Part shown: positions 2,770 to 23,466 of the stretch, piece after piece
How positions within the stretch are numbered: position 1 is the stretch's first letter
Layout of the letters: each line of letters begins with the position of its first letter
Source: Paludisphaera rhizosphaerae
GTDB lineage: Bacteria; Planctomycetota; Planctomycetia; Isosphaerales; Isosphaeraceae
Length of the DNA: 64,000 nucleotides
Assembly: GCF_011065895.1 (NCBI RefSeq)
Contig: NZ_JAALCR010000016.1
Coordinates: 1-64,000, forward strand
Direction of reading: 5' to 3'
Position numbers and translations under genes: made by a program
Notes under the pieces: model-generated
Database searches by the model: none
What the model was told of the DNA's origin: nothing
What the model saw: the letters and a program-made list of their open reading frames with translations, nothing else

Positions 2770-3660
2770 GTGGGTCGATCAGCTTGGCTCGTGGTCGCTG
2801 CGGTCGCCGCGGTGGTGTTGGCGGCGGGGGCGGGGATTGCGGACGGCGGGGGGCTGACGCTGCATCTCCGGTCGCGGGTCGTGGACGGGGACGGCAGGGG
2901 GGCGGTCCTCAAGCGGGAGGAGGACTGGGACCCGAAGAAGACGGCGATCATCGTCTGCGACATGTGGGACGACCACTGGTGCAAGTCGGCGGCGAGGCGC
3001 GTGGGGGAGATGGCGGGGCCGCTGGACGAGATGCTCAAGGCGGCGCGGGCTCGGGGGATCTTCGTGATCCACGCACCCAGCACGACCACGGAGTTCTACA
3101 AGGATACGCCTCAGCGGAAGCGGGCGCAGTCCGCGCCGTACGCGCCCACGCCGGCTCCGTTGGCCTCGTCGCCGCGATGGGGCACAGCCTGGTGCTGGCC
3201 TGACGGCAAGCATGAGGGCGTCCTGCCGATCGACGACTCCGACATGGGCTGCGACTGCGCCCAGAAGTGCGAGATCCGGTCCCCCTGGACGCGGCAGACC
3301 GCCGCCATCGAGATCGCCGAGGGAGACGCGATCACCGACGACGGTCAGGAGACCTGGAACCTGCTGGCCAGCCGGGGGATCGACAACGTCATCCTCTGCG
3401 GAGTGCACTTGAACATGTGCGTGCTCGGCCGACCGTTCGCCATCCGCCAGATGGCCACGCTCGGGAAGAAAGTCGCCCTGATCCGCGACCTGACCGACAC
3501 GATGTACAACCCCGAACGCCCGCCTGGCGTCAGCCACTTCGCCGGCACCGACCTCGTCGTCGGCCACGTCGAGCGCTACTGGTGCCCGTCCTTCCTCAGC
3601 ACCGACATCACCGGCAAGCCGCGCTTCCGATTCGCGGGGGACCGTCGGACGGAAGATTGA
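2770..3660 (+). CDS. Exported isochorismatase-like cysteine hydrolase
   Basis: 296 aa, GTG start at 2770 preceded by GAGGAGG at 2757-2763. Residues 1-24 form a signal peptide (hydrophobic core LVVAAVAAVVLAAGAG). The mature part matches the isochorismatase-like amidohydrolase fold: the first strand IIVCDMW carries the candidate catalytic Asp64, and GVHLNMCVLGRPF holds the candidate nucleophile Cys217. The family hydrolyses C-N bonds (nicotinamidase, N-carbamoylsarcosine amidase, isochorismatase); the substrate here is not predictable. An insertion around residues 125-175 has several extra cysteines (CDCAQKC), unusual for a cytosolic relative and suggesting disulfides or metal binding outside the cytoplasm. 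Monocistronic, convergent with the debranching enzyme. Confidence 0.85.
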   Translation: MGRSAWLVVAAVAAVVLAAGAGIADGGGLTLHLRSRVVDGDGRGAVLKREEDWDPKKTAIIVCDMWDDHWCKSAARRVGEMAGPLDEMLKAARARGIFVIHAPSTTTEFYKDTPQRKRAQSAPYAPTPAPLASSPRWGTAWCWPDGKHEGVLPIDDSDMGCDCAQKCEIRSPWTRQTAAIEIAEGDAITDDGQETWNLLASRGIDNVILCGVHLNMCVLGRPFAIRQMATLGKKVALIRDLTDTMYNPERPPGVSHFAGTDLVVGHVERYWCPSFLSTDITGKPRFRFAGDRRTED

Positions 3661-3817
3661 CCTGAGCCGGGTGGAGCGATCGGCGGACCTCCTCTGCTGC
3701 CGCTTTCTCGCCTGGCGGCCCGGCGAGAGGAAGAGTCCGAGATCGACCTACGATCCGGCCTCCTGATCAACGGGTTGTCGGGGAGCAGCGTCCCCGCCGA
3801 AGGCTTGTCCGTGGAGT

Positions 3818-5806
3818 TTACTCGGACGAGGCGAGGATGATCATCGACCGGGCTCGGACGAGATAGGTCGACATGACGGCGATCTCAGGGCCTTCGTCGA
3901 CTTCGACGTAGTCGTCGGGGGAAGCAAGCGCTGTGTCGACCACGCGTCGCCAGGGGCGTCCTGAGGGCGAGGCCGGGATATGAAACCGCTCGTCGCGATC
4001 GTCCGCGTTCATGGCCACGAAGAAATCGCGGTCGATCACCCCGGGCCGGTCGCAGCGGCGGCCGTCGAGGGCGAAGGCGAGCATGCGACTGCTGGGAGAG
4101 AAGTCTGGCTGAACGGGTAGAACACCGTGCCAGAAGATCTCGGGAGGGCTTCCCGACGCCTGCCCAAAGAAGCTCCGGCGTCGGAAGACGGGATGAGCCT
4201 TGCGCAGGGCGATCATCTTGCGGACGAAGCGGAGGAAGTCCTGATTGGCGTCGGCGAGGCTCCAGTCGACCCAACTGACGGGGTTGTCCTGGCACCAGGC
4301 GTTGTTGTTGCCTTGCTGGGTCCGCAGAATCTCATCGCCGCCGAGGATCATGGGAACGCCCTGCGAGATCAGGAGCGTCGCCATGAGGTTTCTGACCTGG
4401 CGACGCCGGATCTCAAGAACCGCCGGGTCGTCGGTCGGTCCTTCGACGCCGCAATTCCAGGAGAAGTTCGCGTCGTTGCCGTCGCGGTTCCCTTCGCCGT
4501 TGGCCTCGTTGTGCTTGTGGTCGTAGGAGACGAGGTCGAGCAGGGTGAAGCCGTCGTGGCAGGTGATGAAGTTGATCGAGTGCAATGGGCTGCGGCCCGT
4601 GTAGAGGTCGTCGGAGCCGCAGATTCGCGTCGCCAGGGCCGAGGTCATCCCCGGATCCCCCCTCCAGAAGCGCCTGATGTCGTCGCGATAGCGGCCGTTC
4701 CAGTCAGACCAGCGGGCGCCGCCTGGGAAGGTCCCCACCTGATAGAGACCCCCCGCATCCCAGGGCTCGGCGATCAGCTTGGTCCCATAGAGCAACGAAT
4801 CCTCGGAGATCCGGTTGATCGTGGGAGGGTCGACCAAGACGTCCCCTCGACGGTCCCGGCCCAGGACCGACGCGAGGTCGAACCGGAAGCCGTCGACGCC
4901 CGCCTCGGCGACCCAGTTCCGCAGGCACCACAGCAGGAAGTTCCTGACGATGGGGTGGTCCGTGTTGAAGCTGTTGCCGCAACCGGAGAAGTTCAGGTAG
5001 CCTCCCCGCTCGTCGAGGATGTAATAGAGCCGGTTGTCGAAGCCTCGAAAGCTGTAGGTCGGTCCGTCGTCTCCGCCCTCCGCTGTGTGGTTGAAAACGA
5101 TGTCGAGATAGACCTCGACTTCGTGCTCATGGAAGGCGTCGACCATCGCGCCGAATTCCTTCCACGCCTCGGAAGGGCCCGCCTTGACGGCGTAGTTCGC
5201 CTTGGGGGCGGAAAAGGCGATCGTGTTATATCCCCAGAAGTTCAGCAACCGCTCGCCGGTGAAGGGGTTGACGTAACTGCAGTCCGTCTCGTCGAATTCG
5301 TCGACGGGGAGCAGTTCGACGGCGGTCACTCCAAGCTCGTGCAGGTAGTCGATCTTCTCCGCGAGCCCAGCGAAGGTCCCCGGATCGGCGACGCCCGAGT
5401 TGGGGTGGATGGTGAAACCCCGGACGTGCAACTCGTAGACGATCGTATCCTCGAGCGGGGTTCCTGGGCCGACCACCGGCTCGCGCTCGGTCATCGCCTC
5501 GTTGATGAGGCTGCGCCTGGGGTTGGGCGAGCGGTCGCCCCAGTCGCCCCGGCAAGACACAGCGCGAGAGTAGGGGTCCAGCAGGATGACGCCGGAGTCG
5601 AAGCGATAGCCGTGGTTGTCGGGCCCGTCGACCCGGTAGCCGTAGCAGAACTCATCGGGGAGGCCGTCGATTCGGACGTGCCAGTGGTCCCCGGTTCGGT
5701 TGAGACGGGGGTCGAGTTGGACCTCGGTTTCGAACCCGACCGTTTGGGGATCTCCCAGCACGAGCCAGACCGCCGTGGCGTGGCGACAGACCACGGCGAA
5801 GTTCAC
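3818..5806 (-). CDS. glgX: Glycogen debranching enzyme GlgX / isoamylase type (GH13)
   Basis: 662 aa if the GTG at 5806 is the start. It hydrolyses alpha-1,6 branches of glycogen or limit dextrins in the cytoplasm. Domains: CBM48-like N-terminal beta-sandwich (about 1-95), GH13 catalytic barrel (about 120-560), C-terminal beta domain. Catalytic residues visible: nucleophile Asp310 in GFRFDLA, acid/base Glu347 in LIAEPWD, transition-state Asp418 in CHDGF; also DIVFNHTAEG. The GTG falls inside the first CBM48 strand (GGVNFAVV): family-like residues PLGAITELGG continue in frame upstream, yet no ATG, GTG or TTG occurs before the stop at 6008-6010. The true start may be non-canonical (for example ATT at 5923 or a CTG), or there is a sequence error. 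The enzyme call is secure, the 5' end is not. Confidence 0.93.
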   Translation of the reverse strand: MNFAVVCRHATAVWLVLGDPQTVGFETEVQLDPRLNRTGDHWHVRIDGLPDEFCYGYRVDGPDNHGYRFDSGVILLDPYSRAVSCRGDWGDRSPNPRRSLINEAMTEREPVVGPGTPLEDTIVYELHVRGFTIHPNSGVADPGTFAGLAEKIDYLHELGVTAVELLPVDEFDETDCSYVNPFTGERLLNFWGYNTIAFSAPKANYAVKAGPSEAWKEFGAMVDAFHEHEVEVYLDIVFNHTAEGGDDGPTYSFRGFDNRLYYILDERGGYLNFSGCGNSFNTDHPIVRNFLLWCLRNWVAEAGVDGFRFDLASVLGRDRRGDVLVDPPTINRISEDSLLYGTKLIAEPWDAGGLYQVGTFPGGARWSDWNGRYRDDIRRFWRGDPGMTSALATRICGSDDLYTGRSPLHSINFITCHDGFTLLDLVSYDHKHNEANGEGNRDGNDANFSWNCGVEGPTDDPAVLEIRRRQVRNLMATLLISQGVPMILGGDEILRTQQGNNNAWCQDNPVSWVDWSLADANQDFLRFVRKMIALRKAHPVFRRRSFFGQASGSPPEIFWHGVLPVQPDFSPSSRMLAFALDGRRCDRPGVIDRDFFVAMNADDRDERFHIPASPSGRPWRRVVDTALASPDDYVEVDEGPEIAVMSTYLVRARSMIILASSE

Positions 5807-11623: not shown

Positions 11624-13144
11624 TCATTTCTCGAACATCTGCTCCACGGGAACGATCCGCACGCTGACATCCTTGAGCGGGAAGACCTCGATGAGCTTGT
11701 CCTGGTCGAGGATCTCCTGCGGCGTTCCCTGTGTGTCGTAGACGATCGGCGAGGGCTTGCCCGACGTCAGCAGCCCGCGCAACTCCTCTGCATTCCCGGC
11801 CACGATCGCGACCTTCATGCCGCTCGGCTTCAGATGCCTGCGCACGGCCGCGTTGACCTGGTCGACAGTCAGCTTCGGCAGTCGATCGGCCAGTTCGGTG
11901 ACGAGGTCCTTGCGGCCGTAAAGGGTTCCTTCGATCGCGTAGCCGAGCCTTCGCGAGAGGGTCTGGACCCAGAGCTTGCTGTAATTCAGCAGGAACGAGC
12001 GAGTGGCCTCGAACTCCTCGGGGGTCATTCCCTTCTCGATCAGCCGATCCACCTCCCAGAGCGCCGCGCGAAGAGCGAACACCGCCTTGTCGGTCGGCAC
12101 GGGGCGGATCCAGATCGAGAAATACTGCCGCGAGCGGTGATTGTTGGGGATCGGGAAGGTCGACTGGCCCTCCTGAATGAAGTCCTCGATGTAGGAATAG
12201 TCGCCGTAGTTGAGGCCCCGCTTTCCTCGGAGGTCCTGCATCAATCGGCCGTTGAAGGTGCGGTGCTCTCCCAGGAACGAATTGGCGACGGCCAGCGCAT
12301 AAAAGTCGTCGTCAGTCCGCGTGACGTCGATCGGAAAGCCGATGGAGATGGCCGTGGCCTCAGCCGGCTTGGTGACGATCGTCACCTCCAGGCCCCTGGG
12401 AGGGCCGACCGGTGGAATCGTCGTCGGCTGAAGTTCCGAGACGCGAACCAGCGGGGAAAGGCCGTTCTCGATCAGCTTGACGGTCTCGGCGTTCGCCGCG
12501 CCGGCGAGTCCCAGAAACAGGCGGTCGCGCGTGTAATGCGTCCGGTGGAAGTCCTTCACGTCGTCGAGCGTGATCGCCTTCAGCCCCGCCACCAGCCCCT
12601 CGTCGGGTCGACCGTAGGGGTGGTTCTCGTACAGAGCGGACTGGAGCGTCCACTTCCCGAGCGCTTCGTCGTTGTCGCCTCGGAGAGTCTTGGTCAGGTG
12701 GTCCAGTGCTTCCTCACGGAGCCGATCAAAATCCTCGGGGGCGAACCGAGGCGAGGCGATCATCTCGGTCGCCAGGGGGATGTAGGAGCCCAGGTTGTCC
12801 TTGTGGACGTCGCCGCTGAACACGGAGACTTCTTTCAGGCAGTTGCCGTTCAACTCAGCGGCGATTGGAAAGAAGCGGTCGAGCACCTCTTCGTATTTGA
12901 GGGTCTTCGTGCCTCCCTGAGCCACCATCGCGGCGGTGAGGGCGGCAAGGCCTTCTTTCCCCTTGGGGTCGTCGGCCGAACCTACGCGGAAGACGAGGCG
13001 AAGCGATACGAGTGGACCCGACGAGGGAACCAGAACGACTCGCGCATCCGCGGGACCGTCGGCAAGGGCGGGAATCCCCACCGCTGAAGCGAGGAGCGAG
13101 GCGGCGATCGTCAGGCCGGACCTCAAGTACGACGTGTTGATCAT
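11624..13144 (-). CDS. M16-family peptidase-like protein, non-catalytic subunit
   Basis: 506 aa. Signal peptide at residues 1-28. The fold is pitrilysin/insulinase-like (two M16 halves: FRVGSADDPKGKEGLAALTAAMVAQGG at the start, then HYTRDRLFLGLAGA), but the HxxEH zinc motif is replaced by LTAAM, so it should not cleave peptides itself. In bacterial pairs such a subunit completes the clamshell with the catalytic partner, which is exactly the gene upstream: its stop overlaps this ATG by four bases (ATGA, 13144-13141), implying translational coupling and 1:1 expression. Probably periplasmic. Confidence 0.9.
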   Translation of the reverse strand: MINTSYLRSGLTIAASLLASAVGIPALADGPADARVVLVPSSGPLVSLRLVFRVGSADDPKGKEGLAALTAAMVAQGGTKTLKYEEVLDRFFPIAAELNGNCLKEVSVFSGDVHKDNLGSYIPLATEMIASPRFAPEDFDRLREEALDHLTKTLRGDNDEALGKWTLQSALYENHPYGRPDEGLVAGLKAITLDDVKDFHRTHYTRDRLFLGLAGAANAETVKLIENGLSPLVRVSELQPTTIPPVGPPRGLEVTIVTKPAEATAISIGFPIDVTRTDDDFYALAVANSFLGEHRTFNGRLMQDLRGKRGLNYGDYSYIEDFIQEGQSTFPIPNNHRSRQYFSIWIRPVPTDKAVFALRAALWEVDRLIEKGMTPEEFEATRSFLLNYSKLWVQTLSRRLGYAIEGTLYGRKDLVTELADRLPKLTVDQVNAAVRRHLKPSGMKVAIVAGNAEELRGLLTSGKPSPIVYDTQGTPQEILDQDKLIEVFPLKDVSVRIVPVEQMFEK

Positions 13145-14493
13145 TTGGATTCCCTCGTCTCCAGCGTGACGACCGTCTCGTTCGTCGCCGTGAAGTACTT
13201 CGATGCGACGCGTTGAAGGTCGGCCGGGGTCAGACGATCGTAGGCGGCGTACAGTTCGTTGAGCGCTTCGGGTCGGCCGTTGATCGCGATCGACTCCCCA
13301 ACCGCCCTCGCCACGGAATCGGGACTGTCCAACTCGCCGGCGAAGGCGTAGCGGAGGTGCGACTTGATCGCGTTGAGACGATCCTCGGCGACCGGCTTCT
13401 CGGCGGCCTCCTTCAGCGCGTCCCGAATTCGTCGGCCGATCTCCGGCATGAATTCCACCTTTCGGCCGCGCGCCAGGATCGTGAAGAGATGAGGGTCGCG
13501 GTGTGGATCGATGAACGCGGTCAGCGTCTCGGCCTTCTGCTCGTCGAGGACTAGCGAGCGGTACAGCGGGCTGGTCTCGCCGAAGACGGCTTGCTGCAGC
13601 GCCCTGAGCGCAGGCACATCCGGATTGGCGGGATCAGAGGCTGGGGTGTGGTAGGTCAGTGCCAGGATCGGCAGCGTCGGCAGGGGCCAGGTCAACTCGG
13701 CCTTTCGAGGGCCGTCCTGCTCCGGCTCCTGGGGGATCTCGACGCTCTTGCCTCCTCGGGGCCAGGTCCCATAGGCGGTCTTCACGAGGTCGACGAGGAC
13801 GTCGTGATCCACCTGGCCGGCGACGACGATCGTGCAGTTTTCCGGTCGATACCAGCGATCGAAGAAGACCTTGCTGTAGGCGTACTGATTCGGCATGTCC
13901 TTGATGTCAGCCAGGAAGCCGATCGTCGTGTGCTTGTAAGTGTGCGCCGTGAAGGCCGTGTCCGAGAGCGCCTCTTCCAGCTTGAGGAACGGAGAAGAGG
14001 AGCTTTTGTTGTACTCGCCGAGCACGGCGCGGGCTTCCTTCTGGAAGTCGGCCTCGTCGTACTTGAGGTTTCGGAAGCGGTCGGACTCGATCTCGACGGC
14101 CTTCGCCAGGGCCGTCGCCGGGATCGTCATGTGGTAGCACGTCCAGTCGTCGGTCGTGAACGCGTTGGAGTCGGCGCCGAGCGATTTGAGGACGTCGTTG
14201 TAGGCGTCCTGCGAGTACTTGTCGGTTCCGCGAAACATCATGTGTTCAAAGAAGTGGGCGAACCCGGACAGCCCCTTCTCAACCTCGTTCCGCGAGCCGG
14301 TGCGGACGACCGTGTAATAGGCGATGATCCCCGGCGAATCAAAGGGGATGCTGACAACCCCGAGGCCGTTCTCCAGCGTCGTCTTACGGATGGGGTAAGG
14401 GAACACCGGCGGTCGGCCGTCTTCAGCCCTGACCGTTGTGAATGCGCCGGCGAATCCGAAAACGGCGACCGCGCAAAGGAGCAAGCGTTTCAT
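13141..14493 (-). CDS. M16-family zinc peptidase, catalytic subunit
   Basis: 450 aa from the ATG at 14493, where the signal peptide MKRLLLCAVAVFGFAGAF begins; the open frame further upstream belongs to the preceding gene's region. The inverted zinc motif is intact: HFFEH at residues 80-84, with the third ligand expected in the downstream helix around EARAVLGEY. Pitrilysin-type peptidases degrade oligopeptides within a closed chamber and work as dimers or paired domains; the inactive partner follows at 13144. The gene starts 22 bases after the MBL-fold gene's stop, so the three form an operon (15595 to 11624). Confidence 0.93.
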   Translation of the reverse strand: MKRLLLCAVAVFGFAGAFTTVRAEDGRPPVFPYPIRKTTLENGLGVVSIPFDSPGIIAYYTVVRTGSRNEVEKGLSGFAHFFEHMMFRGTDKYSQDAYNDVLKSLGADSNAFTTDDWTCYHMTIPATALAKAVEIESDRFRNLKYDEADFQKEARAVLGEYNKSSSSPFLKLEEALSDTAFTAHTYKHTTIGFLADIKDMPNQYAYSKVFFDRWYRPENCTIVVAGQVDHDVLVDLVKTAYGTWPRGGKSVEIPQEPEQDGPRKAELTWPLPTLPILALTYHTPASDPANPDVPALRALQQAVFGETSPLYRSLVLDEQKAETLTAFIDPHRDPHLFTILARGRKVEFMPEIGRRIRDALKEAAEKPVAEDRLNAIKSHLRYAFAGELDSPDSVARAVGESIAINGRPEALNELYAAYDRLTPADLQRVASKYFTATNETVVTLETRESK

Positions 14494-14515
14494 CGAATAA
14501 GGCACTCCTGCCTGG

Positions 14516-15595
14516 TCACTGGGATTCGAACGTTCGTTCGGGTCCGTCCGAGCCCATTCGCACCCGGAACGTCTTGCCGTCCGCGGGGACGGCGACGCGG
14601 ATGTAGCGCCCACCGGCGGGGTCGGTGTTGGCGATAAGGGACGGGTCGGTGTTTTGATCCGCCGCCGTCTGGGCGTTCTTGTGCAATTGGTAGGCCGCCT
14701 GAACGGAGGGGATCGCCTTGATCCGGCGTACGGTCTCGGCCGCCCCCCCCTTGCGAGGGCCGTTGTCCATGATGGTGACGACCGGGGCGATCGTGCGAAG
14801 GAAGTCGGGATTGTTGGAGATGTCCATCCCGTGGTGGGTCACCTGGAACAGGTCGATCTTGCCGACGAGGTCCACCGGGCAGACCAAGCTCTTCTCGATG
14901 TTCCAGGTCAGGTCGCCGCAGTCGAGGAATTCGAAGGCCCCCTGGCGGAGCTTCAGCACGACGCTGCGCGCGTTGTCGGATTCGTCGACCGGATGATCGG
15001 GAGCCGCCGACTCGCACGAAGCATTCGCGGGAGCGCCGGTTGGAGCAGGAAGGACCTTACCGGACGCCGCGAGAACAACCGCGGTCGTCGTACCTCTCAG
15101 GGGGAGCGAATCGCCCGCTTTCAAGACGGACCGCTTCCCCTTGGACGCGTCACGATAGGCGACGCCGAGGGGGTCCTGCGACTTCGGGCCGTCGGGAAAC
15201 TCCGCGCCGGCTTCGCCGTCTTCGGGGAGGCCCCGATCCCAGAATCGGCCGATCGCGGCGCGCTTCGCTAACCCGGCGACGCCGCCGTAATGGTCCATGT
15301 GCCAGTGCGTCGTCACCAGGTGGTCGATGCGATCGCAGCCGGCGTCCTTGAGCGCCTTCACGATCCTCTCGGGATCGCGGTCGTTCTGGCCAGGCCAACC
15401 GCTGTCCACAAGAATCGTCTCGCGTTCCGGGGTGACGACGAGGGTGGCCGCTCCTCCCAGGACGTCGACAAAGTAAATCTCAAGATCGGCGGCGGCCGCT
15501 CGACCCGAATCGAGGCAAGCGCATCCCGCCAGGACAGCGACCACCAAGGCACGTCCGAACCTCTGAATTTCACCTGTCCAGCCCAGATTCCTCAT
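14516..15595 (-). CDS. MBL-fold metallo-hydrolase, predicted lipoprotein
   Basis: 359 aa from the ATG at 15595, preceded by GGGGGAGAG; the frame is open upstream to 15850 but that part looks non-coding. The signal sequence ends in a lipobox (LAGC, Cys25). The metallo-beta-lactamase motif HWHMDH lies at 97-102, with THHGMD further on as a likely later ligand. Its layout resembles ComEC-C-terminal-like or extracellular MBL hydrolases (phosphodiesterase or nuclease relatives), but the substrate cannot be assigned. First gene of the operon with the M16 pair, so it may act with peptide turnover at the cell envelope; that link is inference. Confidence 0.88.
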   Translation of the reverse strand: MRNLGWTGEIQRFGRALVVAVLAGCACLDSGRAAAADLEIYFVDVLGGAATLVVTPERETILVDSGWPGQNDRDPERIVKALKDAGCDRIDHLVTTHWHMDHYGGVAGLAKRAAIGRFWDRGLPEDGEAGAEFPDGPKSQDPLGVAYRDASKGKRSVLKAGDSLPLRGTTTAVVLAASGKVLPAPTGAPANASCESAAPDHPVDESDNARSVVLKLRQGAFEFLDCGDLTWNIEKSLVCPVDLVGKIDLFQVTHHGMDISNNPDFLRTIAPVVTIMDNGPRKGGAAETVRRIKAIPSVQAAYQLHKNAQTAADQNTDPSLIANTDPAGGRYIRVAVPADGKTFRVRMGSDGPERTFESQ

Positions 15596-16702: not shown

Positions 16703-19700
16703 TCAGTGCCCGCCGCCTGCTGGCGCACCCGTGGGGATGGGGCCGGAATGGACGGAGGCGGGTGAGCGGTCGAGGCCCAGTGGGGCTCGCCCAGCCTTCA
16801 CTTCATCGAGCCGTCGGCCGTACTTCTCGTACAGTTCGGTGTGTCGGCTTTCCGGCGTGACAGGCTTGCCGTCGATGAAGAGCAGTTGAACGCCGGTCGT
16901 CGGTTGCAGCACATGGCCTGAGGTCACGACGACGTTGGCGCGCTTGCCCGGTTCGAGCGTCCCCAACTGGTCGGCGATCCCCAGAATCTGTGCCGGGTAG
17001 AGCGTGACCGCCTTCAACCCTTCCTCCTCGGGGAGTCCGAACGCAACGGCGGTCGCCGCCTCGTAGGGAAGCAGCCGAGAGTTGCGCGGAGAGGATGCAC
17101 CCGGCGCGGACCGGATGGCGAAGGGGACGCCGGCAGCCTGCAACTTGGCCGGGTTGGCGTAGGGGGCGTCATACGGGTCGTACTCCCTCGCCGGGAAGTT
17201 CAACGTGCCGGCGACGATGACCGGAACGCCCGCCTTCTTGATCTCGTCGGCGACCTTCCAGGCGTCGCCGGCTCCTGAAAGAGCCGCCTTGAGCTTGAGT
17301 TCCTTGATGAGCGCCAGGGCGTCCAGGATCTCAACCCGGTCCTCGGCGTGGAGGATCACCAGCTTCTCGCCCTTGGCGTAGGGGGCGAGAGCCTCCATCC
17401 TCGGGTCGACCTTGGGCGTGGACAGGTTCTTGGAGCGGGCCTCGGCGACGACCTCGCTATATCGCTTGGCCTTGAGGAACTGCTGCTTCAAGGCCTCCAG
17501 CAACTCCTTGCGGCGTGCGTTCGGGTCGGCGTTGTCGCCGCCGCCGGGACCTCCCGGGCCACCCTGCCTGGGCTGGCTGCCAAGCGGCCGGTGAACGTGG
17601 CGCGGGATGTTGACCGAGAGCGCGGCCGGGTCGATGAACGCCATCTCACGGGGCACCCAGCCGTTGAAGTTGGCGACGGCCGCCTGGCCGGAGATCGTCC
17701 CGCCGGAGGGCTCGACGAGCCCGGCGAGCACGCCGTTGGCCCGCGTGACGGCCACGTGGGCGCTGTCGGTCCTGAGGGCGGAGGCGGCGTGCAACTCGGG
17801 CTCGTAGCGACCGGCGTCGGCGAAATCGAGCGTCTCGTTGAGGCTGCCGATTTCCGCCAGCCCGACGCTCGTCCCCGCATCGATCAGACCCGGCCAGATG
17901 TCGAGTCCGCGCACGTCGATGGTTTGCGCCTCGGGCGGAATGGGAGTTCCGGCCGGTCCGACCGCGGCTATCTTGCCGCCGACGATGGCGAGCACGCCTC
18001 CCGGAATCGCGGGTCCGCTGACGGGATGCAGCGTACCGCCGACGAGTGCGTAGGCGTCCTTGGGCTGGGGCGTGAAAGTCAGGCTCGGATTGCGGGAAGC
18101 CTCGGGGGCCTGCGGCATCCGCGAGTGATCGCCGGGCCGCGAGACGAACTTGCCGTCGACGAGAGGCTGGCGCTGAAAGTAGACCTCACCTTCGATGATC
18201 GACATCTCGCATCGTGAGAAGGCATCGAACGGATGCCCGTTGAAGATGGCGACGTCGCCGTCCTTGCCGACCTCCAGCGAGCCGATCTGGTCCTCTCGAC
18301 CCAGTTCGAGCGCCGGGTTCAGCGTGACGAACGCGAGAGCCTGCTCCTCGCTCGCACCGCCGTACTTCACCATCTTGGCGGCTTCGTGGTAGAGGTGGCG
18401 GATCAGCTCTTCGCTGTCGCTCTTGATGCTGACGGCCACGCCTGCGCGACTCATCAGCATCGCGTTGAACGGGATGGCGTCGTAGGCCTCGATCTTGTAG
18501 GCCCACCAGTCGGAGAATGTCGATGCGTGCGCGCCGTGGGCGGCGATCTCCGGAGCGACCTTGTACCCCTCCAGGACGTGCTGAAGCGACTGCACGCGGA
18601 CGCCGTAGCGCTCGGTCGTCCGGAGCAGCATCAGGATCTCGTCCGCCCGATAGCAGTGGCTGTTGATCTTGATGGAACCGTCAAGGATCCGTTCCAGGGC
18701 TTCCAGTCGGAAATCGCGGCGAGGAGGCGGGCCGGCCTTCTCGCCCTCGGTCGCCACCTTCTCGTTGTAGAGCCGCCAGGCTTTCTTGTAGGCGAGCGCT
18801 TCCTCGAAGGCGCCCGCGATGACGGCCTCGACGCCCATTCGGGTGTTCGGGAACCGGCCCGTCGACCGCGTGACGTTCTCGCCGAGGGCGAATTTCACCC
18901 CCTGCATCCCTTCCCGGATGATGAGGTCGCGGCCGGGCAGGCCGTACTTGAGCTTGATGACGGCGTCCTGACCGCCGATCGTGTTCGCCGACCCGTGGAG
19001 TACGCGAGCGGTCGTCGTCCCACCGGCGAGGGCTCGGAAGATCGAGACGTCGTCGCCCGTGATGACGTCCTTCACGCGGACGTCTGGGACGACGGACAGA
19101 GTCCCCTCGTTGACGGCTCCCTGCACGGCGATGTGCGAGTGGGTGTCGATGGCTCCGGGGGCTGCGACCATCCCCTCACCGTCGATCACCGCGATGCCCT
19201 CGGCGGCGGTCACGTCGGGGCCGATCGCCTTGATCTTGCCCTTCTCGATCAGGATCGAGCCCTTGGGGATCGTCCCCTTCGTTCCCGTCAGGATGACGAC
19301 GTTCTTGATGAGGACGTCGCCGCCCGTCTTGATCTGGGGCTTGCGGTTGGAATCCAACTCGGCCGCGACGTCGACGAACGGCGGGGGAGGGGGCTCCTTC
19401 GCCTTCTCATCCTTCTTCTCTTCGGGCTTCTTGTCGTCGGCCTTTTCGTCCTTGGCCGGTTCGTCCTTCTTCTCCTCTGGCTTGGCCTCAGTGGCCTCTT
19501 CGGCTTCGCCGGCCGGACGGGGGCGACCGCCGCGGGCTCCTGGACCGCCGGGACCGCCGGGGCCTCCGGGGCCGCGTCGGCCGAGCATCCGTCCCTCGCC
19601 GCCCGCGGGCTGTTCGTCGGCCTTGACCTCGAACTTGCGGCCGTTGATGAAGGTGTACTTGACCTTGGCCTTCTCGTCCTGGAACGGGGCTGAGAAGACG

Positions 19701-21106
19701 ACGACGTGAGCGAGTTTGCCAGGCTCCAGCGTTCCCAACCGGCGATCGAGGCCCACGAGCTTCGCGGCCTCGACGGTCAAGGCCGCGAGCGCCTGGTCGG
19801 CGGTAAGGCCCTGAGCGATGAGCGCCCGGAGACGGGCGGGGACGTTCTCGATTCGGTCGACGCCCTCGGTTCCGATTGCGAACGGCACGCCCTCCTTGGC
19901 GAGCAGGGCGGCGGTGGCGACCTGAGCCTTCCAGTGGTCGAGGTACTCGGCATGGACTCGGAGTGGATCGTCGCGCTGAGCGTCGGGACGCTTGCGATAC
20001 TCGTCCTCAGTGGGGACCTTGGGTTCCTCGGGGAAGTCGAGTCGCAGGACGACGGGGGTCTTTTCCGCCTTCAGTCGGTCGACGACCTTGTAAGCTTCGC
20101 GTCCGCCGACGATCACGGCCGTCGTGCCGAACTCCTGGGCCAGGTCGAGGGCACGGTGGATTTCATCGCGAGTCTCAGCCTGCCACCACACGGGGATCGA
20201 CTTGGCGCGGGCGTTGGCGAGAACGTCGAGCGCCGGGTCGTCGGGCACGGGCTCCCCGCCGTGGGCCTTCTCATAAGCCATCCGTTTCTGATGGTGTTCG
20301 GCATCGCTCATCGCCTGCCGGAGGTGGGACACCGAACCCATGAGGACGCGTGGGTAAGGATTCTCCGAGGCCCCATCACGGCCGCCGAAGCCTCGTCCGC
20401 GAAAGCCGGCCGGAGGGGCGCCGGGCGTGTTCTGGCCTGTTCCCGCGGAGGGCTCCTGCGGCGGAGCCACCTGGATGTGCAGCGCGACGGGCGACTTGAG
20501 CAGCGCGTCGCGACGGGGGAGGCCGGAAAGGCTCACCACGGCGCTGCGGCCGGTCGCGATCGCACCCGCCGGCGCGGTGAGCATGTCCGTGAAGCCCAGG
20601 CGACGTCGCGGGTCGGCCAGCGCGTCGTTGAGGTCGAGGGCGTCGGCGACCTGGAATTCAGGCGTCAGTCCCTTGCGGTTGTCAGTCGGGGTGACGGCGA
20701 GGGTCGTCTCCGAGAGATCGACGGGGCGGCCCCGACCGGTGGTCGATCGTTCGACGCCCGCCTTCTGGCCGGCCGTTGTGTAGACGTCGATGAAGCCCGG
20801 GTAGACGATCAGACCCTTGCCGTCGACGATCTCGGCGTCGAACGGGACGGTCACCTCGGCGGCGGGACCGGCGGCTTCGATCAGGCCGCCTCGGATCACC
20901 AGCACGCCGTCGTCGACCACTTTGCCAGGGGCGATGAAGAGCTTGGCGCCTTTCACGGCGAAGGCGGCGGGGTAGTTCGGGTCGTCGTCGGCAAGCGACG
21001 CGGGAGCGATCGTCGAGAGCAGGAGGATCGGCAGAAGCAGTAATCGACCGACGCGGAAATGCGGACTCGATCGCGGACGAGAGGCCCCGATAGATGGGTC
21101 GTTCAT
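16703..21106 (-). CDS. Giant exported protein with three amidohydrolase-like modules
   Basis: 1467 aa, ATG at 21106 with GAGGA six bases before. Signal peptide about 20-40 (LLLLPILLLSTIAPASLA). Module 1 (about 45-505) has the amidohydrolase composite barrel (GFIDVYTTAG) but no HxH metal pair. A charged Lys/Glu/Pro/Gly linker follows (about 509-575, repeated GGP and EEKKDE units). Module 2 (about 580-1010) has an intact metal site, GAIDTHSHIAV with His656 and His658, and further His motifs, so it is the likely catalytic part (imidazolonepropionase/dihydroorotase superfamily). Module 3 (about 1020-1467) starts again with a beta-sandwich (YALVGGTLHPVSG) and WPGLIDAGTSVG, again without HxH. One active and two apparently inactive barrels in one chain is unusual. 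Substrate unknown; probably periplasmic. Confidence 0.9.
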   Translation of the reverse strand: MNDPSIGASRPRSSPHFRVGRLLLLPILLLSTIAPASLADDDPNYPAAFAVKGAKLFIAPGKVVDDGVLVIRGGLIEAAGPAAEVTVPFDAEIVDGKGLIVYPGFIDVYTTAGQKAGVERSTTGRGRPVDLSETTLAVTPTDNRKGLTPEFQVADALDLNDALADPRRRLGFTDMLTAPAGAIATGRSAVVSLSGLPRRDALLKSPVALHIQVAPPQEPSAGTGQNTPGAPPAGFRGRGFGGRDGASENPYPRVLMGSVSHLRQAMSDAEHHQKRMAYEKAHGGEPVPDDPALDVLANARAKSIPVWWQAETRDEIHRALDLAQEFGTTAVIVGGREAYKVVDRLKAEKTPVVLRLDFPEEPKVPTEDEYRKRPDAQRDDPLRVHAEYLDHWKAQVATAALLAKEGVPFAIGTEGVDRIENVPARLRALIAQGLTADQALAALTVEAAKLVGLDRRLGTLEPGKLAHVVVFSAPFQDEKAKVKYTFINGRKFEVKADEQPAGGEGRMLGRRGPGGPGGPGGPGARGGRPRPAGEAEEATEAKPEEKKDEPAKDEKADDKKPEEKKDEKAKEPPPPPFVDVAAELDSNRKPQIKTGGDVLIKNVVILTGTKGTIPKGSILIEKGKIKAIGPDVTAAEGIAVIDGEGMVAAPGAIDTHSHIAVQGAVNEGTLSVVPDVRVKDVITGDDVSIFRALAGGTTTARVLHGSANTIGGQDAVIKLKYGLPGRDLIIREGMQGVKFALGENVTRSTGRFPNTRMGVEAVIAGAFEEALAYKKAWRLYNEKVATEGEKAGPPPRRDFRLEALERILDGSIKINSHCYRADEILMLLRTTERYGVRVQSLQHVLEGYKVAPEIAAHGAHASTFSDWWAYKIEAYDAIPFNAMLMSRAGVAVSIKSDSEELIRHLYHEAAKMVKYGGASEEQALAFVTLNPALELGREDQIGSLEVGKDGDVAIFNGHPFDAFSRCEMSIIEGEVYFQRQPLVDGKFVSRPGDHSRMPQAPEASRNPSLTFTPQPKDAYALVGGTLHPVSGPAIPGGVLAIVGGKIAAVGPAGTPIPPEAQTIDVRGLDIWPGLIDAGTSVGLAEIGSLNETLDFADAGRYEPELHAASALRTDSAHVAVTRANGVLAGLVEPSGGTISGQAAVANFNGWVPREMAFIDPAALSVNIPRHVHRPLGSQPRQGGPGGPGGGDNADPNARRKELLEALKQQFLKAKRYSEVVAEARSKNLSTPKVDPRMEALAPYAKGEKLVILHAEDRVEILDALALIKELKLKAALSGAGDAWKVADEIKKAGVPVIVAGTLNFPAREYDPYDAPYANPAKLQAAGVPFAIRSAPGASSPRNSRLLPYEAATAVAFGLPEEEGLKAVTLYPAQILGIADQLGTLEPGKRANVVVTSGHVLQPTTGVQLLFIDGKPVTPESRHTELYEKYGRRLDEVKAGRAPLGLDRSPASVHSGPIPTGAPAGGGH

Positions 21107-21351
21107 GGATGTCCTCTTCAGAAATGCGGCTCGGGACGTCGTTCCCTGGCGATCGCAGCATCATAGTCGAACCCGCCCGCTCGACGCCATCGTTCAGGGT
21201 TTTCGATCAGCCCCAGGATGCGCCGGTGGAATCGAGTCGGGCGGAGCGTTGCTCACGTCCGCCGGGCGCGGCAGACTTGTCGAAAGCGTCCGCGTGGGCC
21301 GGGGATTTCCGTGGCCCAGGGCGTCGAGCCATCCTCAGGAGTCTGTCCGCC

Positions 21352-23466
21352 ATGAGAAGACGTTCGATCCGAACTCTCGCCGCAGTCCTGATCCTCGTCG
21401 CCGCAGCCTCGGCGATTCGGGCGCAGACTCCGGCCGACTTCGCGCAGACAGGCGCGTACATCGCCTCGCTCCAGAACAAGGACGGCGGCTTCGGCTCCGC
21501 GCCGGGACAAGCCTCGACGCTGGGCTCGACAAGTTCGGCCCTGCGGATTCTGAAGTACGTCGGCGGTTCGGTCCCGGACGTCCTCAACTGCATCAAGTAC
21601 GTGAAGTCCTGCCAGGTCGACGGCGGCTTCGCCCCGACGCCCGGCGGCAAGGCGGACTCGCTGACGACTTCGACAGGTCTGCTCGCCGCGGCTGAACTCA
21701 AGATCGTCGACAAGCCGCTCGTCGACTCCGCCATCGCCTACTTTCATGAGCATGCGAAGGAGGATGAGCAGGTCCGGATGGCGGTCGCCGCGATGGAGGC
21801 CGTCGACAGCCTATCGCCGGACTCCCCGCGTTGGATGGAGCAGATCCAGAAGCTGGGGAACCCTGACGGAACGTTCCGCGAGGGGCCCGGCCAGGCGTTC
21901 GCGGCCGGAACCGTCGCGGCGACCTTGCTTCGCGCGGGGGGCAGCCTGGTCAATCGCGACGCCGCCGTTTCCGCGATGAAGGCCGGACAGCAGGCCGACG
22001 GCGGTTGGTCCAAGGACGGCGGCCCATCGGATCTTGGCAGCTCGTATCGAATCATGCGGGCGCTTTACATGCTCAAGGAGAAGCCCGATCTCGACCGCCT
22101 TCGGTCGTTCATCGCCCGCTGCCGCAAGTCGGACGGGACCTATTCGACTACGCCCGACGGGCAGGGCAATCTCGGTGGGACGTACTTCGCATCGATCCTC
22201 ACCAACTGGTCGCGCAAGCTCGACGGCGAGCCGCCCATCGTCGAGACCGCCGGGTTCGTTCCGCTCTTCAACGGCCGAGACCTCACGGGCTGGGAAGGCG
22301 ACACGACTGTCTGGTCAGCGCGTGACGGCATGATCGTCGGCAAGTCGAACGGTTTGAAGAACAACGTCTTCCTGGCGACGAAGGAATCGTACCGCGACTT
22401 CGTCCTTTCGCTCAGCTTTCGGGTGATCGACGGGAAGGGGAACACGGGCGTCCAGTTTCGGAGCGTGCGGATCCCGGGCACAGAGATGTCCGGCTACCAG
22501 GCCGACATCGGCGAGGGGTACTGGGGGAGCCTCTATGACGAGTCGAGGCGCAAGAAGACGCTTGTGACGGCTTCGAAGGAGGCGCTTGAGAAGCTCAACA
22601 AGAAGGACTGGAACCAGTACGTCATCCGGGCGTTCGGCGACAAGATCACGACTTACCTCAACGGCGTCACCTCGGTCTCCTACACCGAGACCGACCCGAC
22701 GGTGGCCCGCGACGGCCTGATCGCCTTGCAGGTCCACTCCGGCGGGCCGATGGAGGTGCAGTTCAAGGACGTGATGATTCAACGCGTCCCGTCGCCTGGC
22801 GTCTGGGCCGATCCGAAGGCGGCCGGCTTCCACCTCCGAACCGTCGCGACGCCTGAAGGCGATCGTAAGTACACGGTCTACGTGCCCCAGGGTTACGACG
22901 AATCGAAGACTTACCCCGGGGTCCTCTTTCTCCACGGCGCCGGCGAGCGTGGCGAGGATGGGACGATCCCCTCGCAGGTCGGCCTCGGGCCGGCGATCGT
23001 CCATCGCGGCGGAATCCCGGCGGTCGTGGTGTTTCCTCAGGCCCGGAAGACCTGGCAGTCGGACTCCGACGACGCCAAGGCCGCGCTCCAGGCGCTCGAC
23101 GACGTGATGAAGGCTTACAAGGTCGACCCCGCGAGGATCGTCGTGACGGGTCTCTCTATGGGGGGGATGGGGACATGGAGCATTGGCGGCCAGAACCCTC
23201 AAAAGTTCGCTGCAGCCGTGCCGATCTGCGGGCCTGGCAAGCCTGAGGACGTCGTCAATCTTCTGAAGACCCCCATGCGGGCGTTTGTCGGCGACGACGA
23301 CTCGCCCAAGCTTCACCTCGGCCTGCGAATGAATATCGAGGCCTTTCGTAACGCGGGGGGGCACCCTGGTTACACCGAGTATCGCAACGTCCCGCACAAC
23401 AGCTGGGACCGCGCCTACAACGATCCCGAAACGATCGACTGGATGCTCACGCAGAAGCGACCCTGA
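21352..23466 (+). CDS. Exported fusion: prenyltransferase-like toroid, DUF1080, alpha/beta esterase
   Basis: 704 aa from the ATG at 21352, at a clear signal peptide (IRTLAAVLILVAAASAIRAQ). Residues about 25-290 are alpha/alpha repeats with QNKDGGFGS and QQADGGWSKDGG, as in prenyltransferase/squalene-cyclase beta subunits, but without an evident catalytic site. Residues about 300-480 are DUF1080 (3-keto-disaccharide hydrolase / LamG-like: GFVPLFNGRDLTGW...GNTGVQFRS). Residues about 490-704 are an alpha/beta hydrolase of the PHB-depolymerase/esterase type: GLSMGG with Ser602, acid in DDD at 648-650, His682 in VPHNSW. The three modules suggest a secreted carbohydrate-ester enzyme; the toroid may bind or scaffold. 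I know each domain in planctomycetes, not this combination. Confidence 0.88.
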   Translation: MRRRSIRTLAAVLILVAAASAIRAQTPADFAQTGAYIASLQNKDGGFGSAPGQASTLGSTSSALRILKYVGGSVPDVLNCIKYVKSCQVDGGFAPTPGGKADSLTTSTGLLAAAELKIVDKPLVDSAIAYFHEHAKEDEQVRMAVAAMEAVDSLSPDSPRWMEQIQKLGNPDGTFREGPGQAFAAGTVAATLLRAGGSLVNRDAAVSAMKAGQQADGGWSKDGGPSDLGSSYRIMRALYMLKEKPDLDRLRSFIARCRKSDGTYSTTPDGQGNLGGTYFASILTNWSRKLDGEPPIVETAGFVPLFNGRDLTGWEGDTTVWSARDGMIVGKSNGLKNNVFLATKESYRDFVLSLSFRVIDGKGNTGVQFRSVRIPGTEMSGYQADIGEGYWGSLYDESRRKKTLVTASKEALEKLNKKDWNQYVIRAFGDKITTYLNGVTSVSYTETDPTVARDGLIALQVHSGGPMEVQFKDVMIQRVPSPGVWADPKAAGFHLRTVATPEGDRKYTVYVPQGYDESKTYPGVLFLHGAGERGEDGTIPSQVGLGPAIVHRGGIPAVVVFPQARKTWQSDSDDAKAALQALDDVMKAYKVDPARIVVTGLSMGGMGTWSIGGQNPQKFAAAVPICGPGKPEDVVNLLKTPMRAFVGDDDSPKLHLGLRMNIEAFRNAGGHPGYTEYRNVPHNSWDRAYNDPETIDWMLTQKRP

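Follow-up and report, generated by a model that had tools for sequence, protein, structure and literature searches.

An exported chain of three amidohydrolase-type modules

The window analyzed here, a 64,000-nucleotide stretch of a Paludisphaera rhizosphaerae contig, carries on its reverse strand a single open reading frame in which three amidohydrolase-type modules, M1, M2 and M3, follow a predicted signal peptide. It is the only copy of the three-barrel gene in the 8.05 Mb genome, the other match being short and weak. The features of the gene are as follows.

16703-21106 (-): fused M1-M2-M3 amidohydrolase chain, a single open reading frame of 1467 residues with an ATG start (from the reading frame and its sequence)
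20990-21106 (-): N-terminal Sec-type signal peptide, residues 1-39, recognized by eye from a basic n-region, the LLLLPILLLSTI core and the ending ...ASLA/DD
19607-20977 (-): M1, residues 44-500, amidohydrolase barrel without metal ligands, with conserved R263, Q264, D268, R318 and E325
19343-19606 (-): M1-M2 linker, residues 501-588, of low complexity (Gly/Pro, then Lys/Glu/Pro) and predicted to be mostly disordered
18137-19342 (-): M2, residues 589-990, predicted live barrel, TM0814/3ooq-like (from sequence and structure matches and ligand columns)
19133-19141 (-): H656 and H658, predicted HxH metal ligands of strand 1, in 156/156 aligned M2 sequences
18893-18895 (-): K738, strand 4, probable bridging (carboxylated) lysine, in 156/156
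18656-18658 (-): H817, predicted strand-5 ligand, in 156/156
18578-18580 (-): H843, predicted strand-6 ligand, in 156/156
18416-18418 (-): D897, predicted catalytic or ligand aspartate of strand 8, in 156/156
16832-18070 (-): M3, residues 1013-1425, amidohydrolase barrel without metal ligands, with conserved E1085, D1094, R1122 and R1344

When scored singly against Pfam Amidohydro_1 (PF01979), M1, M2 and M3 reached 52.7, 61.3 and 33.9 bits, respectively, all above the gathering score of 25, and each is thus assigned to the superfamily by sequence. The modules also resemble one another (M1 and M3, 28% identity, E 4e-33; M2 and M3, 30%, 1.5e-22; M1 and M2, 22%, 2e-11), with E values of 1e-53 to 1e-79 in profile-profile comparisons, and M1 is closer to M3 than either of them is to M2. 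Among the matches listed for the whole protein (25 of 66), no NCBIfam family was found at its cut-off, and the same held for split relatives among the matches listed; the equivalogs hutI (110.7 against a cut-off of 298.15 bits), nagA (82 against 225.65) and Xaa-Pro dipeptidase (110.8 against 500) all fell below theirs. A crude test for a hydrophobic 12-mer upstream of the module that leads an open reading frame in relatives was positive for 53 of 71 M1, 22 of 38 M2 and 42 of 56 M3.

AlphaFold2 models were made of two barrels each, from alignments of 48-49 sequences. The M2-M3 model had a pLDDT of 91.2 and a pTM of 0.92, and the M1-M2 model had a pLDDT of 86.1 and a pTM of 0.87 despite 127 residues with pLDDT below 50; in the latter, pLDDT was below 50 across most of residues 498-578, in the linker. 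For two equal domains, these pTM values imply that the relative placement of the barrels is modeled with confidence. All three predicted modules have the barrel fold: M1 matched ochratoxinase (4c65, Z 24.1, its top structural match among the matches listed), and both M2 and M3 matched 3ooq (Z 42.1 and 48.1, respectively). The first-pass annotation had described three amidohydrolase barrels in one exported chain, and the signal peptide, the Pfam scores and the confident two-barrel models agree with that description; the structure prediction that it proposed, run on pairs of barrels, matched all three modules to amidohydrolase structures. The fold markers GFIDVYT and WPGLIDAG, which it had assigned to M1 and M3, are found where it placed them.

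A complete predicted metal site in M2 but not in M1 or M3

Binuclear amidohydrolases follow a pattern of HxH on strand 1, a lysine on strand 4, histidines on strands 5 and 6 and an aspartate on strand 8. M2 has this complete set, with each position conserved in 156/156 aligned sequences, and the M2-M3 model places the six residues on strands 1, 4, 5, 6 and 8 or immediately after them. E743 and H704 are likewise invariant across the 156 sequences. Judged from these columns, M2 probably binds two divalent metals via H656, H658, K738, H817, H843 and D897; we take K738 to be carboxylated, following the pattern of the amidohydrolase superfamily. A further position of strand 5, residue 815, is His in 149/156 M2 sequences and Asn in the window (N815, 18662-18664). 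Of the seven sequences that depart from His815, four carry Asn, two Gln and one Asp; they are those of the window, L003, L005, L006, L104, L108 and L152.

The complete M2-type ligand set was found in 0/137 M1 and 0/150 M3 sequences, which places neither module in the binuclear subtype; eight short M1 pieces and pieces under 360-370 residues were left out of the alignments and sets. The columns of M1 and M3 that match the M2 ligands are variable or hold Gly, with Gly at the strand-6 position in 127/137 M1 and 138/150 M3, and the position of the strand-4 Lys in M3 falls in a gap of the profile alignment. A stray strand-1 HxH occurs in one of the 137 M1 (L142) and one of the 150 M3 (L170), each time with the strand-6 Gly and without the strand-8 Asp. 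No His or Cys column exceeded 50% in the 137 M1 sequences, the highest being H210 (68/137). Three such columns were found in M3. By position, H1027 (111/150) belongs to the N-terminal sheet, H1422 (99/150) to the C-terminus and column 1069 (78/150), where the window has Asp, to the stretch directly preceding strand 1; none is an M2 ligand position. We also considered H1253 of M3, on strand 5, as a relic of the strand-5 His. However, this residue is His in just 38/150 sequences and the other ligands are absent; H1253 is thus not a metal site. The first-pass annotation had placed a metal site only in the middle module and had confined His656/His658 (THSH) to it. Both statements stand, the second for the window sequence, and the search for metal-binding residues at non-standard positions in M1 and M3 returned none.

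M1 and M3 have conserved residues of their own. R263, Q264, D268, R318 and E325 of M1 are kept in 125-130 of 137 sequences (R263 in 130), and in M3 R1122 is found in 150/150, D1094 in 149/150, E1085 in 148/150 and R1344 in 147/150. A simple Nei-Gojobori count over four same-genus orthologue pairs, with the L005 row left out, gave dN/dS values of 0.12-0.28 for M1, 0.08-0.22 for M2 and 0.13-0.27 for M3. All three modules are under purifying selection. The low dN/dS, together with the invariant residues that M1 and M3 have of their own, makes a pattern unlike that of decaying copies.

Arrangement of the modules across bacteria

Relatives were collected by module-profile searches of whole genomes and by a scan of named genomes. 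The scan gave at least 595 stretches encoding an M2 relative, and what is said of named loci rests on the best 80 of these. Because the two locus sets are partly shared (for example L134 = G006, L140 = G237, L162 = G101, L168 = G245, L178 = G199 and L188 = G197), their counts were not added.

The first set holds 89 M2 loci of the phylum of the window. It includes the paralogous two-barrel loci L057, L130 and L131 and the loci L081, L086 and L092, cut by contig ends, and it omits L015-L051 (short flanks or duplicates of later loci), L126-L128 (nine-barrel clusters) and L129. All three modules are colinear in 77/89 loci: 34 encode a fused M1-M2-M3 chain, 28 an M1-M2 fusion and a separate M3, and 15 a separate M1 and an M2-M3 fusion. 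The rest are seven M2 and M3 gene pairs and four M2-M3 fusions without a recognized M1, and one M1-M2 fusion at a contig end. The 11 loci without M1 comprise the three paralogous ones, two at contig ends (L086 and L092) and six others; no M1-type barrel was found beside M2 and M3 in L103, L115, L117, L118, L124 and L125.

The best 80 of the at least 595 named loci come from 11 phyla and two unassigned records, and 75 have all three modules, as three genes (29), as an M1-M2 fusion and M3 (26), as one fused chain (13), as M1 and an M2-M3 fusion (4) or as an M2-M3 fusion and M1 (3). The remaining loci are three M1-M2, one M2-M3 and one with separate M2 and M3, and contig ends cut some of the modules counted. 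Within these best 80, three genes are found in 17/22 loci of the Acidobacteriota and 10/11 of the Bacteroidota; loci of the Planctomycetota are fused (12/32) or have an M1-M2 fusion and M3 (16/32), the latter being also the form of both Pseudomonadota loci (Idiomarina baltica and Undibacterium fentianense). Both Armatimonadota loci (L182 and L183) have M1-M2 only, M3 being absent despite full flanks. The M1-M2 chain of L182 and L183 is extended at its C-terminus by about 130 residues.

That M1-M2 fusions beside M3 and M2-M3 fusions beside M1 both occur indicates that fusion happened at either seam. Adjacency is conserved: M2 without either neighbor was found in 0/89 loci of the phylum and in 0/80 named loci (the best 80 of at least 595). 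Outside both sets lies L129 (G153; 3307-4539, minus strand), a weaker M2 relative (237 bits) that is alone in a 5.8 kb contig and is absent from the tree described below. Where genes are split, the distance from the upstream stop to the next domain had a median of 65 nt across 33 junctions and of 85 nt across 56, with 33/33 and 54/56 of the junctions, respectively, within 300 nt.

Co-occurrence was assessed by profile searches of 199 genomes of the phylum, with cut-offs set from the score listings (about 270 bits for M1, 480 for M2 and 320 for M3); M1 hits lying on an M3 were excluded, and G136 was scored as M3-positive from two pieces (272 and 234 bits). M2 was found in 65 genomes, M3 in 64, M1 in 54 and all three in 51. 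Only G186 had a strong M3 without M2, and only G186 and G226 a strong M1 without M2; we rejected these as orphan M1 or M3 genes, as both candidates sit at contig ends. M2 without M3 was found in G139, which holds sub-threshold M3-like pieces, and in G228, whose M2 starts near the contig edge. A strong M1 was missing from 13 genomes with M2. In five of these, the open reading frame of M2 also gave a weaker M1 match (G071, G099, G119, G129 and G219), two have one beside M2 (G180, 226 bits; G191, 250 bits), in two M2 lies near the contig start (G170 and G240), and in four there was no M1 match beside M2 (G078, G108, G139 and G144). The region was retrieved for 58 of the 65 M2 genomes; in G076, G170, G171, G191, G200, G214 and G240 the match coordinates place M3 next to M2. 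With 13 M2 genomes lacking a strong M1 and few lacking M3, M1 is, by these matches, the least constant module, and every strong M2 (65 genomes) is adjoined by at least one predicted dead partner. Within the family of the window (37 genomes including its own), G016, G017, G023, G024 and G035 had no strong match to any module, which fits a loss of the whole set, and G034 had an M3 piece only.

History of the three modules

In a tree of 74 sequences from eight phyla (Planctomycetota, Acidobacteriota, Bacteroidota, Gemmatimonadota, Pseudomonadota, Verrucomicrobiota, Ignavibacteriota and Zixiibacteriota), the 21 M1, 21 M2 and 21 M3 rows each formed one side of a branch, with SH-aLRT values of 100, 100 and 99; the tree was made by a quick method with no bootstrap and has some long branches (including L083_M1 and L161_M1) and seven rows of unlike composition. 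Holding M1, M2 and M3 of the window together as one clade cost 625 log-likelihood units (AU p 1e-56). On this phylogenetic evidence, M1, M2 and M3 are old orthologous groups. The phylogeny of the modules against each other, also proposed with the first-pass annotation, thus groups them by module over eight phyla and not by protein, and this grouping, together with the AU rejection, indicates that the divergence of the barrels is far older than their union in this gene of the window. Since the modules form clades over eight phyla and are separate adjacent genes elsewhere, the single chain appears to have arisen by fusion. An ancient tandem duplication, with the metal site lost early and long before the fusion, is likely. 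The distance matrices of the modules correlate (r 0.83-0.90 over 25 split-gene loci), a correlation that shared species history also gives.

Known relatives and gene neighbors

The best PDB sequence match of M2 (E 5e-48) is 3ooq of Thermotoga maritima, an amidohydrolase of no stated function, which we take to be the product of TM0814. It is also the best structural match of M2 (32% identity) and of M3 (the next entry has a Z of 24.5). Like M2, 3ooq has the HxH, the K..GEN motif of strand 4 and the strand-5 and strand-6 His; unlike the trio, it is a single-barrel chain with no pseudoenzyme modules, and the alignment shows that it is without the DWW motif nearly invariant in M2. No paper naming TM0814 or 3OOQ was found in our literature search. 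The nearest characterized folds include isoaspartyl dipeptidases as well as prolidases and Lys/Arg carboxypeptidases (3n2c/3feq, 3mkv, 3mtw (Cc2672) and 3be7; Z about 20-24), the latter group presumably corresponding in part to cog1228. In contrast to the trio, these prolidases and carboxypeptidases are single barrels on separate chains, with an identity of only about 15-22%. Metal-dependent bile salt hydrolases were considered and set aside as belonging to a different part of the amidohydrolase superfamily; the terms heterodimer and inactive are absent from the paper on them (PMC13081902).

No neighboring gene is widely shared: the widest non-amidohydrolase cluster occurs in 9 of the best 80 (of at least 595) loci, at varying positions. 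Clusters of NlpC/P60 (via member L193) and M28 (via L202) neighbors occur in 5/11 and 6/11 Bacteroidota loci, respectively, and are suggestive only. In Cyclobacteriaceae, the trio is followed by genes for an NlpC/P60 endopeptidase with SH3 domains (L193:9114-12484) and for an M28 peptidase with a TFR dimer domain (L202:10373-12487), and in Undibacterium an M28 gene lies about 2.8 kb before the trio; the rest of the nine further neighbors scanned had nothing in common. In the window, the nearest downstream genes on the same strand with a family match code for a metallo-beta-lactamase-fold protein and two M16 peptidase-like proteins, the latter from adjacent genes at 11624-14613 (-); pairs of live and inactive members are known in the M16 family. 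On the other strand, one open reading frame (21094-23466, plus strand) joins a prenyltransferase-type toroid, a 3-keto-disaccharide hydrolase domain and an esterase-like domain. The substrate of M2 probably belongs to the class of small amides or peptides. As the neighboring genes differ between lineages, the substrate itself is a guess, and it is the weakest step of the mechanism proposed below.

Other sets of predicted live and dead barrels

In a paralogous two-barrel protein (L131:3820-6441, minus strand; L057:4223-7066, plus strand) or gene pair (L130:507-3223, plus strand), the metal site is complete in the first barrel and absent from the second. In addition, seven consecutive genes with nine barrel-like domains are found in the same order in four genomes (genus codes g9 and g20).

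L127:2407-15028: nine-barrel cluster of G030
L128:1449-14013: nine-barrel cluster of G013
L126:2164-15614: nine-barrel cluster of G024
L215:2733-15467: nine-barrel cluster of G254

In 4/4 genomes, barrel a3 is the only one with the HxH, the strand-5 and strand-6 His and the strand-8 Asp. The last gene of the G024 cluster was matched in three pieces, and because profile tests cover only some of the domains, the count of nine is provisional. Among 45 family genomes, the cluster gene a5 was found in these four and in G255, at 47-100% identity.

Discussion

We propose, with a probability of about 0.6, that the exported hydrolase is a fixed assembly of a live M2 and two pseudoenzymes, M1 and M3, made from three genes elsewhere and as one chain here. 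Acting outside the cytoplasm, M2 would hydrolyze a small amide or peptide bond. M1 and M3 would pack on M2, in the places held by identical subunits in ordinary amidohydrolase oligomers, and may stabilize it, shape its substrate entry or regulate it. The models suggest that the barrels pack against one another, and we infer that the three modules form an obligate complex. The recurrence of the trio, as one to three neighboring genes, in many phyla points to the dead barrels being required partners rather than debris. The idea, put forward with the first-pass annotation, that the inactive barrels bind substrate or regulate is thus kept in a wider form, as a binding, structural or regulatory role would best account for the metal-less M1 and M3.

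Precedents exist for dead barrels of this fold. In the collapsin response mediator proteins with dihydropyrimidinase, catalytically dead amidohydrolase barrels take part in oligomers built from that fold; unlike the trio, the collapsin response mediator proteins are eukaryotic, cytosolic and encoded by separate genes. The complex of pseudo-dihydroorotase and aspartate transcarbamoylase is cytoplasmic. It is by analogy with this complex that we assign a role to M1 and M3: the pseudo-dihydroorotase of Pseudomonas aeruginosa is reported to be inactive, yet necessary for aspartate transcarbamoylase activity (PMC7053772). The likeness lies in an inactive dihydroorotase-like chain needed by its partner; in that complex, however, the partner is a transcarbamoylase and not an amidohydrolase, and the chains are separate.

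An alternative that we regard as unlikely is that M1 and M3 are independent binding barrels, arranged like beads on a string, whose old pockets bind substrate, cell-wall or surface ligands and bring the ligand near M2 without tight packing. Although the M1-M2 linker is long and disordered, and the modules keep their barrel folds and conserved polar residues of their own (R263, Q264 and D268 in M1; E1085, D1094, R1122 and R1344 in M3), the pTM values of 0.92 and 0.87 are above what we would expect for freely oriented domain pairs. Moreover, M2 is adjoined by M1 and/or M3 throughout both locus sets (the 89 loci and the best 80 of at least 595). More doubtful still is that M1 and/or M3 are another kind of enzyme, working through Arg, Asp and Glu without metal or with a single atypical metal. 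The (near) invariance of R1122, D1094 and E1085 in M3 and of R263 in M1 could be read in this way, but the ligand positions are without conserved His or Cys, and in the amidohydrolase superfamily, as described in PMC13081902, water is activated by metal. The first-pass annotation held tandem duplication with decay to be likely, and three homologous modules sharing one open reading frame might suggest it. In its recent form, in which a single gene duplicates internally and two of the copies then decay, this can be dismissed, since the clades follow the module and not the protein (AU p 1e-56 under the tree model used), the genes are split in other phyla, and purifying selection acts on M1 and M3, which have invariant residues of their own.

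The reading that we favor, a live M2 assembled with two dead sister barrels, may extend beyond the trio. We tentatively suggest that exported amidohydrolases of several lineages have repeatedly become sets of one live and several dead sister barrels, as in the trio, the two-barrel paralogue and the nine-barrel cluster, and that the dead barrels replace symmetry mates, so that the pseudo-oligomer is asymmetric and has a substrate path or regulation built in. Neither single amidohydrolase barrels nor pseudoenzyme partners are new in themselves; what appears to be new is a trio, fused or split, in which a live barrel and two dead sisters are widely conserved together. No description of such a trio was found in the titles and abstract openings of the literature searched, a body that lies outside subscription papers, and amidohydrolases are unmentioned in the Isosphaera and Gemmata literature among the matches listed.

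It is common to write pseudoenzymes off as relics. In the present case, two of them, as judged from their sequences, occur with a live homologue in orthologous trios across many phyla. Because one-, two- and three-gene versions exist in nature, the role of each dead barrel is directly testable, and the fused and split forms allow assembly by gene fusion to be tested on natural examples. If the tentative extension to several lineages is true, it would represent a general, so far undescribed architecture of secreted hydrolases.
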